This document shows positions 7,071-55,061 of a DNA stretch of 57,445 nt, one piece after another. A program made the position numbers and the translations under genes. This DNA is from Lachnospiraceae bacterium (lineage in GTDB: Bacteria; Bacillota; Clostridia; Lachnospirales; Lachnospiraceae). Position 1 is the first letter of the stretch. Every line of letters begins with the position of its first letter. The stretch spans positions 1 to 57,445 of the forward strand of contig JAFSXN010000100.1 in NCBI GenBank assembly GCA_017444015.1. The letters are read 5' to 3'. The notes under the pieces are model-generated. The model saw nothing but the letters and a program-made list of their open reading frames with translations, did not search any database and was not told the DNA's origin.

Positions 7071-7156
7071 TTATGCGCAGGCCCGCGTATGGAAGTTTTC
7101 CGGCTGAAGCCGGACGCGGGTCGCGCGGCGTGTAGGGGGTCACCCCTGCTCGATTC
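7071..7156 (-). repeat. Dispersed two-hairpin repeat, copy A
   Basis: On the minus strand this copy begins GAATCGAG at 7156 and ends GCGCATAA at 7071. It forms a first hairpin (CGAGCAGGGG/CCCC) and a second with outer arms CCCGCGT/ACGCGGG and inner CCGGC-TTCA-GCCGG. Its last ~60 nt match copy B (34266-34358) almost base for base. The element overlaps the last codons and the stop codon of the FliK-like gene and fills the leader of the first flagellin. Confidence 0.85.
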
Positions 7157-34265: not shown

Positions 34266-34358
34266 GAATCGAGTAGGAGGATGCCTTTCCCTCCTGCTCG
34301 CCGCGCGGCCCGCGTCCGGCTTCAGCCGGAAGACTTCCATACGCGGGCCTGCGCATAA
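34266..34358 (+). repeat. Dispersed two-hairpin repeat, copy B
   Basis: Begins GAATCGAG and ends GCGCATAA. Hairpin 1 is CGAGTAGGAGG/CTCCTGCTCG. Hairpin 2 has outer arms CCCGCGT/ACGCGGG around CCGGC-TTCA-GCCGG. It is nearly identical to copy A (7071-7156, minus strand) in its second half. It lies downstream of the FHA gene in the same orientation and could act as a 3' end or stability element. Confidence 0.85.
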
Positions 34359-46236: not shown

Positions 46237-47112
46237 CTAGCCCTTTACAGCACCCTCGATCATTCCTTCCATGATCTGCTTCTGAGCGATCAGGAAGATG
46301 ATGACCATCGGGACGATCGCAAGCAGAGCCGCCGTCAGGATCAGGTTCCACTGCTTGACATAGGACCCTACGAAGGCCTGAACCGCAACGGGAATCGTCT
46401 TGACCGCGCCGTTTTGTCCGAGCATCATCGAGGGCAGAAGGTAATCGTTCCAGATCCACATACCGTTTAAGATCGTGACCGTTGTGATAACGGGCTTTAA
46501 GAGCGGCAGGATCACGCGGAAGAAGATCCCCTCCGGAGGACACCCGTCGATGGAGGCTGCTTCCTCTAGTTCATAAGGAATCCCCTTGATAAAACCGTTC
46601 AGGATAAATACGGTCATCGCCCCGCCGAAGCCGAGGTAGGCGAAAACAATACCGGGCACCGACTGTAACATCGGGATCCCGACAAATTTTCCTACGTCAC
46701 GGAAGGTCGAGATCAGCGGAAGCATAACAACCTGGAACGGAATAATCATGGAAGCGATAAAGGTAAAGTAGATAAACTGGGACCATTTGGTCTTGTTATT
46801 CCGGCAGATCACCCAGGCTGCCATTCCTCCGAAGAGGGCCAGCAGTACAAGGGACAGGACTGTAATCAGCACCGAATAGCCGAAGGCCTGCCAGAACAGG
46901 AAATGCGTATTGTTGATAACGTCGCCGAGGTTCTGGATCAGCTGTCCGATGCTCACGCCGCCGAAGCCTACCGGATTCGAGGTAATGTCGCTCGTCGCCT
47001 TGCAGGAATTGATCACGACAAGGAAGAACGGGAACAGTACGTAGATCGCGATTACGATGGCGATCACCAGCTTTATAACGATACTTGAGGTTTTTTCTTT
47101 CGTATGTAACAT
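46237..47112 (-). CDS. Sugar ABC transporter permease, MalG type
   Basis: A 291-residue carbohydrate permease of the CUT1 class with six membrane segments. The EAA loop reads ELEEAASIDGCPPEGIFF, the contact site for the ATPase. Its start overlaps the stop of the upstream permease by one base. A CUT1 ATPase (MsmK/MalK type) is not in the window and is presumably shared from elsewhere in the genome, as usual in Firmicutes. Confidence 0.94.
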   Translation of the reverse strand: MLHTKEKTSSIVIKLVIAIVIAIYVLFPFFLVVINSCKATSDITSNPVGFGGVSIGQLIQNLGDVINNTHFLFWQAFGYSVLITVLSLVLLALFGGMAAWVICRNNKTKWSQFIYFTFIASMIIPFQVVMLPLISTFRDVGKFVGIPMLQSVPGIVFAYLGFGGAMTVFILNGFIKGIPYELEEAASIDGCPPEGIFFRVILPLLKPVITTVTILNGMWIWNDYLLPSMMLGQNGAVKTIPVAVQAFVGSYVKQWNLILTAALLAIVPMVIIFLIAQKQIMEGMIEGAVKG

Positions 47113-48179
47113 TACAGCTCCACCTCCTTACTATTCGAGACACGTACCTGTAAGATCGAAACACAGGCCAGAATGATAAAGAACAGCACCGCTTTGGCCT
47201 CGCCGAAGGAATATTCATTCTGTACAACGGCGGTATTGTAGATGTTCAGAGCAAGCATCTGTGTTCCGTTGGTCAGATAGGTTCCCATAAAGTCCGCGAC
47301 CGAGCCGGTTCCGTTGGTTAACGCCAGGTTGACATCGAACTGCTTGAAGGCGGAGGTCAGAGTTAAGAAGGTACAGATCGTGATCGTAGGAGCGATCATC
47401 GGGATCTTGATGTTGAAAAGCGTCTGAGTCGGGTTCGCGCCGTCGATGGCTGCCGCTTCCAGAGTCTCTACCGGCACCGTATTCAGACCCGTGATATAGA
47501 TCAGCATGATATAGCCCGCGTACTGCCAGATAAAAACGACGATAATGCAGGCAAAGGCGGTATTGGTATCCGAGAGCAGGGAATAGGAGCGCCCGGAGAG
47601 AGCTGTCGTCCACTTTGTCACAACATCACTGAAGATGAATTGCCAGATATAGCCCAGTACGATACCGCCGATCAGGTTTGGCAGGAAGTACGAGGCTCGA
47701 AAGAACCCCATGCCCTTCAGACGGTTCGTGCAGAGCAGAGCCAGCAGAAAAGCGACCAGATTGACTAAGATCATATTTACAACTACAAAGAGGAACGTAA
47801 TCAATATTGACCATACGAAGCTGGGCTGACGAAACATTTTCGTGTAATTGCTGAAGCCTACAAATTCCGTCATACGGATGCCGTTCCAGTCCGTAAAGGA
47901 ATAGCCGATACCTAAAACCAAAGGGATGATGACTGTTACCGCGAAGGCAAAGAGCAGCGGGAACAGGAAGATAATGTGGATAAACGTCCTGTGATATTTC
48001 TGGGACGGGAAGTAATAAAGTCCGATAATCATCAGGATCACTCCAATGACAAGCATCGCGCCGCGGGCGCTCAAGCCGGAGCCGATGATATCCTGGATCA
48101 GGGCAAATACCGTAAGCAGAGCTCCGCCGATCAGACAGATCAGGGAGCAGAGCCTTTTGCCTGCTGAAGCCTCGTTCAT
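47112..48179 (-). CDS. Sugar ABC transporter permease, MalF type
   Basis: A 355-residue CUT1 permease. Two extra N-terminal membrane segments (about 12-30 and 38-55) precede the six-helix core. The EAA loop reads VPVETLEAAAIDGANP. The start ATG at 48179 follows an AGGAGGTT site. It is separated from the upstream binding-protein gene by 324 bp that carry two inverted dispersed repeats and a hairpin, which probably sets a different level of expression from the binding protein. Confidence 0.94.
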   Translation of the reverse strand: MNEASAGKRLCSLICLIGGALLTVFALIQDIIGSGLSARGAMLVIGVILMIIGLYYFPSQKYHRTFIHIIFLFPLLFAFAVTVIIPLVLGIGYSFTDWNGIRMTEFVGFSNYTKMFRQPSFVWSILITFLFVVVNMILVNLVAFLLALLCTNRLKGMGFFRASYFLPNLIGGIVLGYIWQFIFSDVVTKWTTALSGRSYSLLSDTNTAFACIIVVFIWQYAGYIMLIYITGLNTVPVETLEAAAIDGANPTQTLFNIKIPMIAPTITICTFLTLTSAFKQFDVNLALTNGTGSVADFMGTYLTNGTQMLALNIYNTAVVQNEYSFGEAKAVLFFIILACVSILQVRVSNSKEVEL

Positions 48180-48237
48180 AAGAACCTCCTTTCAAACATT
48201 AAAGTCGGTAGGGGGGAGGTTAATTCCTCCTTCGTAA

Positions 48238-48330
48238 GAATCGAGCAGGGAAGACGAAGTCGCACCCTACTCGCCCGCGAGCCGCGCCCCGACGAAGTCG
48301 GGATAATACCTCCGCGCGGCTCTGCGATAA
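48238..48330 (+). repeat. Dispersed two-hairpin repeat, copy C1
   Basis: Begins GAATCGAG and ends GCGATAA, on the strand opposite to the transporter genes. Hairpin 1 is CGAGCAGGG/CCCTACTCG. Hairpin 2 has arms AGCCGCG/CGCGGCT around CCCGAC-GAA-GTCGGG. The stems differ in sequence from copies A and B but remain paired. Confidence 0.75.
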
Positions 48331-48365
48331 AAAACGGGCAGAGGCTGGGAGCCCCTGCCCATATT
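48329..48365. terminator. Terminator-like hairpin at the centre of the inverted repeat pair
   Basis: GGGCAG (48336-48341) pairs with CTGCCC (48355-48360), and inner GGCT/AGCC lengthens the stem, with AAAAAA on the left. Read on the minus strand this gives a hairpin followed by U residues, so it can end or weaken transcription between the binding-protein and permease genes. Confidence 0.6.
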
Positions 48366-48453
48366 ATCGCAGAACCGCCGTTTGGAAGATGTCAGCTGAA
48401 GCTGACCGGCGGCTCGCGGCGAGCAGGAGGGAAAAGCACCCTCCAGCTCGATT
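48364..48453 (-). repeat. Dispersed two-hairpin repeat, copy C2
   Basis: On the minus strand, in the direction of transporter transcription, it starts AATCGAG at 48453 and ends GCGATAA at 48364. The stems are CGAGCTGGAGGG/CCTCCTGCTCG and GCCGCCG/CGGCGGT around TCAGC-TTCA-GCTGA. The changes against copy B are compensatory. It lies 50 bp after the binding-protein stop. Confidence 0.8.
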
Positions 48454-48503
48454 ATAGTTGCAATGTTTTGTCCTCTGGATTTTGTTACATATTATATCCG
48501 AGA

Positions 48504-49805
48504 TTAATTTGCGTAGTAAGAAGCAATTACCTGCTCCATCGTTGTTACGAAGGAAGCCTCATCGAGAGATCCCTTTGCGTAATCCGCGAATACCTGGCAG
48601 GTTACGTTCTGAAGGCCGTCCTTCTTTAACATCGTATGCCAGCCGGAGGTCTTGCCTGCGTCCATATAGCTCTTGATGCTGTCATAGAACGGGTCAGCTG
48701 CCGCGTATGCGCAGTCATTGAACGGGCTGATCAGGCCTGCTTTGTTTACGAGAATGTCCTGTGCGGAATCATCGGATACCCACTGCAGGAATTCCTTGGC
48801 AGCGTCAACATTTCCCTCGCCGTATACTGTCCAGTAGCTGGGAGGACCGGCGATGATGGTATCGATGCCATCTTCGAAAGCGTAAGGAGCAAAGCCCATT
48901 CCGAATCCGCTGTAGTCAGCGCTTGCGGTTACGGTAGCGTTGATCCAGTTACCCTGCGTTACGAAAGCGTACTTTCCGGCCGCGAAGCCAGCTACCTGGT
49001 TATCATAGGTTCCGTCTACCAGGAGGCTCGGATCGGAATAAGTATTCATCATACCAACGAAAGCCGCGAAATCCTTCATTCTGGCTTCGTCGATCTTTCC
49101 GCCGTCATTTAAGAGGTCGATGTAGGTCGTATCGTCCTGCGCAAGACCTGCGTCGAGGTACTGAGCGAATACGTGAGTTCCGGAAGACCAGCCGAGGTTC
49201 GCGGGCTCTGCGCACCAGCCGAATACTGCGGTAAGTCCGAGCTCATCCTTCTTGCCGTCCAGGGTCTCGCAGGCTGTCTGCCAGGCTGCGGGGCTCGTCA
49301 GAGAAGCGGGATCTACGCCGGCTTTTTCAAGAACGTCAGCGTTATAAGCAAGAGCCGTAGCTTCTACGGTATATGGGAAGCCGATGGTTCCCATCTTAGC
49401 GTCTACTAATTCGTAATCCGTGTCGTTCGTCCAGGCTTCACCGGAAAGGTCTGCTAACATTCCGTCCCAGGTCGCTGCCTGATTTGCTTCGATAACGAAG
49501 ATATCCGGCATATTGTCCGCCTGATACATCTTCTTTAACTCATCCGATGCGTTCGTATCGCCGCCGATGGTCTCGATCGAGATAGCGTTTCCGGTCTCTT
49601 CGGTATACTTCGCCGCCAGCTCCTGAAGCTGGGAATCGATCTCGGGCTTTCCGTTTAAGAGACGGATGCCGCCCGCAGCCGCTGCCGCGCTGCCGGAATC
49701 AGCAGCCGCGCTTCCGCTGTCTCCCGCCGGTGCCGCGCCGCCGCAAGCGGTAAGACTGAACACCATAGCACCTGTTAAGATAAGCGCCAATAATCTTTTC
49801 TTCAT
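48504..49805 (-). CDS. Sugar-binding lipoprotein, MalE type
   Basis: A 433-residue extracellular solute-binding protein of the CUT1 class. Its lipoprotein signal ends LTACGG, with the Cys acylated after cleavage. A Ser/Ala/Gly-rich linker follows, then the SBP_bac_1 fold. I place the start at the ATG at 49805 after AAGGAGGAA. It is the first gene of the transporter operon, behind a TTGAAA-17-TATATT promoter with two operator-like sites. Maltodextrin or a related glucoside is the likely ligand because of the surrounding genes, but this is inference. Confidence 0.93.
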   Translation of the reverse strand: MKKRLLALILTGAMVFSLTACGGAAPAGDSGSAAADSGSAAAAAGGIRLLNGKPEIDSQLQELAAKYTEETGNAISIETIGGDTNASDELKKMYQADNMPDIFVIEANQAATWDGMLADLSGEAWTNDTDYELVDAKMGTIGFPYTVEATALAYNADVLEKAGVDPASLTSPAAWQTACETLDGKKDELGLTAVFGWCAEPANLGWSSGTHVFAQYLDAGLAQDDTTYIDLLNDGGKIDEARMKDFAAFVGMMNTYSDPSLLVDGTYDNQVAGFAAGKYAFVTQGNWINATVTASADYSGFGMGFAPYAFEDGIDTIIAGPPSYWTVYGEGNVDAAKEFLQWVSDDSAQDILVNKAGLISPFNDCAYAAADPFYDSIKSYMDAGKTSGWHTMLKKDGLQNVTCQVFADYAKGSLDEASFVTTMEQVIASYYAN

Positions 49806-49892
49806 AAGTTCCTCCTTCAAGTGATTTGTTTTACAACTACCCATTCCACAAAATGTACAAAAACGATGTGCATTTTAGCTCATTTCATGGAA

Positions 49893-54941: not shown

Positions 54942-55061
54942 CTCTTATTCAGAGTGGTGGAGATACATAGGATCTAAGAAGCCACGGCAACCCCGATTTG
55001 GAAGGTGCCAACCTGAGCGAGATTCGGCTCTCGTAGCGAGAGCGTGTTCGAACAATAAGAG
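54942..55061 (+). promoter_or_regulatory. SAM-I (S-box) riboswitch
   Basis: The P1 stem is CTCTTAT (54942-54948) with ATAAGAG (55055-55061). Inside are the S-box landmarks AGAGTGGTGGAG, GAAGCCACGGCAACC, GGTGCCAACCTGAGCGA and GTTCGAACAATAAG in the usual order. When SAM is bound, the downstream terminator should form and metK expression falls. Confidence 0.95.

Follow-up and report, generated by a model that had tools for sequence, protein, structure and literature searches.

Within the window, i.e. the whole stretch of 57,445 nucleotides that was analyzed here, the genes for an extracellular solute-binding protein and an ABC transporter permease (47112-49844) enclose a terminator-like hairpin, which is bracketed by two copies (C1 and C2) of a folded repeat of about 90 bases. 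Segmental mRNA stability is often set in the spacer between solute-binding-protein and permease genes. Two further copies, A and B, lie elsewhere in the window, copy A at the end of a DUF6240 gene. The features are as follows:

7071..7156, minus strand: copy A, whole element; hairpin 1 (7129-7152) weakened, with an internal deletion, hairpin 2 (7075-7126) intact
7140..7156, minus strand: overlap of 17 bases between copy A and the DUF6240 gene, encoding the C-terminal residues of DUF6240 and the stop codon
7140-10328: DUF6240 gene, its last codons and stop supplied by copy A
34266..34358, plus strand: copy B, whole element; hairpin 1 34270-34300, hairpin 2 34303-34354, ATAA tail 34355-34358
47112..48179, minus strand: ABC transporter permease gene (PF00528), flanking C1 on the other side
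48238..48330, plus strand: copy C1, whole element; hairpin 1 48242-48273, hairpin 2 48276-48326, ATAA tail 48327-48330
48336..48360, no strand assigned: terminator-like hairpin GGGCAGAGGCTGGGAGCCCCTGCCC between C1 and C2, read from the sequence
48364..48454, minus strand: copy C2, whole element; hairpin 1 48420-48450, hairpin 2 48368-48418, ATAA tail 48364-48367
48504..49844, minus strand: extracellular solute-binding protein gene (PF01547), 5′ of C2 and in the same orientation as C2

Read along its plus strand, the element starts with AATCGAG and hairpin 1 (H1). Hairpin 2 (H2) follows, beginning with a GCGC clamp and continuing with an outer stem and an inner stem-loop. On the 3′ side come a bulge of about 11 bases containing TTCC, the return stem, a single bulged T, GCGC (or GCG) and the ATAA tail. 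The internal bulge, which is 10–12 bases long (..ACTTCC.T..), and the single bulged T go beyond the initial annotation of this DNA, which had placed four copies that fold alike. A model search of the window returned all four of these copies and no fifth one at E ≤ 0.001, and their common folding was borne out by z-scores of −2.85, −6.01, −4.83 and −6.97 against dinucleotide shuffles. The ATAA ends of C1 and C2 both point at the hairpin at 48336..48360. As the DUF6240 gene takes its final codons and its stop from copy A, the insertion of this copy probably replaced the original 3′ end of the gene.

At the gathering threshold, an Rfam 15 scan of the window detected only a SAM riboswitch (54942-55061, plus strand). 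Permissive scans of nine loci with copies of several classes yielded only sub-threshold matches to the element. No Rfam 15 family thus reaches its gathering threshold over the element, in agreement with the previous statement that no named element matches, and the open-access literature searched contained no description of this two-hairpin repeat family.

Copy number, subtypes and distribution

The four repeats belong to a large, apparently undescribed family of folded DNA repeats of about 90 bases in rumen Lachnospiraceae. A Blast search of the source genome with copy B gave 58 matches, several of which were two pieces of one copy. As proposed in the initial annotation, covariance models were then used for searches of this and other genomes. 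Model R1, built from 13 copies, gave 92 matches in the source genome at E ≤ 1, so further copies do exist, and the broader model R2, built from 47 copies, gave 108 matches at E ≤ 0.01. After the three weakest of the 92 matches (E 0.36 to 0.71) were left out, 76 matches of the AATCGAG type and 13 of a second class remained.

This class II, accounting for 13 of the 89 matches examined, is a TA-flanked MITE that is about 150 bases long, has a third hairpin and is located mostly at contig ends; more class II copies appear in the R2 search. It is nearly identical in many copies at L082-L093 and other contig ends of G000 and seems to break the assembly. Relatives of class II with TTATAGTAAACGAC ends are present in another family of the order. 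At one place (L090, 149-397), a cobalamin riboswitch starts directly behind a class II MITE.

In other genomes, a pattern for H1 only was found in 66 stretches, which are titled Lachnospiraceae, Butyrivibrio and Oribacterium, with two uncultured Clostridiales. The R2 search of these stretches gave 76 matches, at least one in each, the rows being partly dependent owing to orthologous loci (L156/L174, L168/L182, L173/L208) and tandem neighbors. Most of the stretches also carry H2, though the pattern did not require it. Within the genus, 17 of 37 genomes matched R2 at E ≤ 0.01. Across the order, 48 of 392 genomes matched at E ≤ 1e-4, representing 31 of 173 sampled genera from several families; many of these matches are class II or other relatives and not the AATCGAG type, and with at most ten candidates scored per genome the copy numbers per genome are lower bounds. 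Fifteen genomes picked as carriers had 2 to 116 R2 matches each, the highest number being that of RGIG6709.

The element also occurs in other forms. In long forms of about 124 bases there is an additional hairpin of about 34 bases, which exists in two sequence versions, each of them self-complementary. RGIG6709 has a long form in which H1 and H2 are separated by a cargo hairpin of about 50 bases (L360, L361, L366, L367), which is identical or nearly so at several sites. Several head-to-tail tandems of copies were found. Carriage by phages or plasmids was rejected, with no match of the H1 pattern in the viral contigs searched and none of copy B in the plasmids searched.

Placement, orientation and dispersal

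For the analysis of orientation, genes were called by a simple codon-usage finder and only tandem gene pairs were used. Convergent pairs were dropped because either orientation gives the same answer, and copies without a called gene on the relevant side were left out. The counts from tandem pairs supersede the raw orientation counts (57/69 in the source genome, 65/69 elsewhere). In tandem contexts the element runs antisense to the two neighboring genes in 37 of 43 cases in the source genome (p 1.6e-6) and in 38 of 39 elsewhere (p 1.5e-10), i.e. in 75 of 82 cases in total, and its ATAA end is thus oriented towards the 3′ end or terminator of the upstream gene. According to the initial annotation, three of the four copies sit directly 3′ of a gene and share its orientation. 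This is true for the window copies and is not the habit of the family; the genome-wide context is the reverse. Only six copies of the source genome have both neighbors in sense, and three of these are A, B and C2, so the earlier impression is a local accident.

A hairpin starting within 16 nt of the right flank was present for 61 of 74 copies from the source genome and 62 of 73 other copies, compared with 27 and 28 after shuffling (2 of 76 and 3 of 76 copies, respectively, without 60 nt of flank were left out). The mirrored left flank has a hairpin in 37 of 74 and 25 of 73 copies, so the shuffle overstates the contrast within the source genome. Between element and hairpin lies an A-rich stretch, a T-tract on the other strand, which was richer than the T-stretch beyond the hairpin in 46 of 61 own and 42 of 62 other cases, with the reverse balance in 14 and 12 cases, respectively; this A count can include the ATAA of the element itself. 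As judged by the hairpin and the A/T counts only, the copies are placed just behind terminator hairpins, as is typical of group IIC introns. The ATAA end faces a terminator-like hairpin and T-tract, antisense to the gene that this terminator would serve.

Dispersal is evident from near-identical copies at different sites of two genomes. In RGIG2882, 21 of the 55 pairs formed by 11 copies are at least 97% identical. In RGIG6709 this holds for 10 of 21 equal-length pairs among nine copies, and seven near-full copies, query included, are at least 98% identical to the query. Filled and empty versions of one site were also found: a copy is present in L207 and absent in L171, with flanks 89–96% identical, and the empty site in L171 consists of an A-rich tract followed by a terminator-like hairpin. 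In the closest comparison with an empty site, the filled copy has the extra bases TGTGCA at its left edge, and no clean target-site duplication was apparent by eye. At a second locus, also compared by eye, the source genome has a long copy, G020 another subtype beside a partial copy, RGIG2882 a diverged copy and G035 no copy. The family hence shares with MITEs a non-autonomous, dispersed nature and polymorphic presence; the AATCGAG/GCGCATAA ends are not inverted repeats, and the terminal inverted repeats with target duplication that also define MITEs were not seen.

On balance, we consider it probable that the members of the family are REP/MITE-like repeats, mobile, palindromic and non-autonomous, and that terminators are their target. 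The copies look as if they had spread by landing just behind gene-end signals, with the fold kept and the sequence not.

Covariation of the stems

Joint changes of both stem partners, reported in the initial annotation for the four window copies, occur throughout the family. Among 47 diverse copies, double changes were found in 29 of 29 pairs, and 95.1% of the cells were paired, compared with at most 44% when the partners were slid. The proposed statistical test gave 285 double-change cells for this set versus 75 (sd 8.4) after shuffling and at most 35 with slid partners, 385 versus 106.8 (sd 9.3) for 81 copies, and 335 (in 26 of 29 pairs) versus 87.1 (sd 8.0) for the H1-selected set from other genomes; the alignments (A3, A4, A5) were fitted to the model structure and are thereby biased towards pairing. 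The stems thus covary far beyond the shuffled controls.

In four related species the fliL-fliM spacer holds a diverged copy in sense orientation (L066, L068, L139, L145, L148). Of the 34 genomes with a FliM match, 29 were read at this spacer, which is filled in four of them (G001, G004, G008, G021); G011 retains a remnant, and the remaining genomes read have a short spacer. Presence was rechecked by model, and this recheck gave a fifth, weak match (E 0.31) elsewhere in L311. With only 4 of 29 genomes carrying the element, a genus-wide conserved regulatory site between fliL and fliM was rejected. Among the five sequences from these four genomes, double changes occurred in 9 of 30 pairs versus 3.5 after shuffling. 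Since double changes exceed the controls both in the copy sets and at the fliL-fliM site, the two-hairpin fold is maintained across unlike sequences.

Part of this covariation may be due to template switching and the exchange of modules. It is quite possible, if short of probable, that intrastrand template switching and the exchange of whole modules rewrite both arms of a stem with little selection on each copy, and this can hold beside a mobile palindrome. Modules are exchanged whole: at one site in two related genomes (L208 and L173) H1 is nearly identical and H2 different, and in the source genome several H1 types are combined with several H2 types (72 copies; 4 of the 76 AATCGAG-type matches were left out as too short). 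Also, when changes were counted as events within clusters of similar copies, G-T and A-C were about equal (19:19, 20:19 and 16:12 in A5; 19:18 and 11:17 in A3), so RNA-level selection on the plus strand is not supported and template switching could make the paired changes. Template switching is argued in PMC8794818 to create and maintain stems. Stem correction alone, however, does not explain why three unpaired features, the TTCC bulge, the bulged T and the AT tail, show little change from one subfamily to another although the stems differ; because these unpaired bases largely stay while the stems change, selection on something is still favored. The earlier step from paired changes to selection on structure therefore stands in part: the kept unpaired bases speak for some selection, while module exchange and the parity of G-T and A-C weaken the argument from the stems.

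A functional RNA, i.e. a plus-strand transcript of 3′ or intercistronic regions whose hairpins protect or process mRNA, as is reportedly the case for REP elements between malE and malF, is an unlikely explanation of the family. It draws on the three window copies that follow a gene in sense, on C2 between the solute-binding-protein and permease genes, and on the fliL-fliM spacer, where the plus strand would be operon mRNA and the double changes are accompanied by a G-T to A-C ratio of 7 to 1, based on few cells. In A5 the raw cells likewise showed 90 G-T versus 29 A-C. However, at least 34 of the 90 cells lie in one pair column (73 distinct rows), and the excess was not confirmed when events within clusters were counted. 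Furthermore, most copies in tandem contexts are antisense to both neighbors, and some orthologous sites carry no copy. The behavior of the main class is thus closer to that of a palindrome acting at the DNA level, while a domesticated copy may act as RNA. Some copies, e.g. those inside the fliL-fliM operon of related species, may have come to act in this way later.

Candidate mobilizing enzymes and comparison with known systems

Twelve reverse transcriptase (RT) loci and eight Y1_Tnp loci were inspected, and the element is absent from all 20. RVT_1 was present in 7 of the 15 genomes searched and absent in 8. The source genome has two RVT_1 genes (L225, L227), both adjoining an Rfam RT-18 RNA, and a protein next to the L225 gene resembles the target (variable protein) of a DGR. 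From sequence features such as these, its two reverse transcriptases look like DGR-type enzymes. Eight of the 12 RT loci were scanned, of which two, both in the source genome, have an RT-18 RNA and the following five loci of related genomes have an Rfam RT-5 RNA:

L219: RT locus with RT-5 RNA
L220: RT locus with RT-5 RNA
L222: RT locus with RT-5 RNA
L223: RT locus with RT-5 RNA
L224: RT locus with RT-5 RNA

No group II intron family was detected in the window or in the 8 of 12 RT loci scanned. No recurrent linked gene was found among 426 neighboring proteins, the largest clusters having six members, as expected of a non-autonomous element.

Fixed antisense orientation, 3′-anchored copies and occasional 5′ truncation would be expected from target-primed reverse transcription at a terminator T-tract. 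Retroposition would mean that a plus-strand RNA ending in GCGCAUAA is reverse transcribed from the 3′ end of a terminator T-tract, and the orientation and T-tract adjacency of the copies fit this. A few copies of the source genome keep the 3′ end without the 5′ part (C190 and C147; less clearly C159, C7, C178 and C183), and the one inspected own copy that has just the 5′ end is truncated by the edge of its contig. Against it stand the DGR-like appearance of the reverse transcriptases in the source genome, the 8 of 15 genomes without RVT_1 and a 5′-only copy consisting of H1 in RGIG6709. In addition, an internal deletion may account for C159, and such deletions are present in other copies of the source genome (C46, C88, C138). 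We therefore give little credence to this route, and a bacterial SINE-like retroposon, i.e. a structured RNA of about 90 nt using target-primed reverse transcription from an intrinsic terminator T-tract, seems improbable.

Mobilization as REP elements by a RAYT (TnpA-REP, an HUH Y1 transposase) would agree with the copy number, the mostly extragenic position, the bulged hairpins and the mosaic arrangement, with a GTAG in the 5′ arm of H1 (62 of 76 copies in A5, 33 of 59 near-full own copies), and with Y1_Tnp genes in 5 of 15 searched genomes (in each of the five, at least one lies in a frame of 224-285 aa), but is very improbable, as Y1_Tnp is lacking in the source genome (whose assembly has a listed completeness of 94% and may have missed such a gene) and in RGIG6709 despite its 116 matches, and the eight Y1_Tnp loci are free of the element. 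Published REPs are described in PMC3733652 as palindromes tagged at one end by an unpaired GTAG or CGTC; in the 76 copies of A5 and the 59 near-full own copies no such terminal unpaired tag occurs, the GTAG being inside the paired H1 arm, replaced by GCAG in other copies, and at neither end. Overall, Y1_Tnp was absent from 8 of the 12 genomes in which AATCGAG-type copies were seen, the source genome among the eight, and a Y1 transposase was rejected as the mobilizer; the searches yielded no other mobilizing enzyme.

For a mobile palindromic repeat that targets terminators, the following course is proposed. A mobilizing enzyme acting in trans would recognize H2 in its folded state, including the unpaired TTCC, T and AT(A/C)A, and would join the ATAA end to the T-tract. 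Copies would build up because terminators are harmless targets, and the fold would be kept because only foldable copies move. The stems would also be homogenized by module exchange and perhaps by template switching. The family would add a terminator-hugging, structure-conserving group of repeats, relatives of which occur in 31 of the 173 sampled genera of one order, and its mobilizer is testable. With the distinct traces that module exchange, template switching and selection leave in it, the family also provides a natural data set on the question of when paired stem changes really mean selection on RNA.

Among known systems, IS200/IS605-derived MITEs have terminal hairpins with unpaired bases and a fixed orientation relative to a short target, and both traits are also seen here; in contrast to them, the source genome has no Y1 transposase, and an autonomous copy with the same ends was not found. 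Group IIC introns, which according to PMC8919778 insert immediately after rho-independent terminators, have insertion behind a terminator in common with the element. It differs from them in its length of about 90 nt, in having no intron-encoded protein and in that no intron family was found in eight RT loci. The TA-flanked class II MITEs of the source genome share the H2 design; they have terminal inverted repeats, a third hairpin and TA flanks, unlike copies of the window type. REP/BIME elements and REPINs with their RAYT are likewise small extragenic palindromes of high copy number with mosaic combination and a bulged hairpin. No RAYT was found in the source genome or in 8 of 12 carriers (source genome included), and the present family is distinguished by two unlike hairpins in fixed order, a long one-sided bulge, adjacency to terminators and a fixed orientation.
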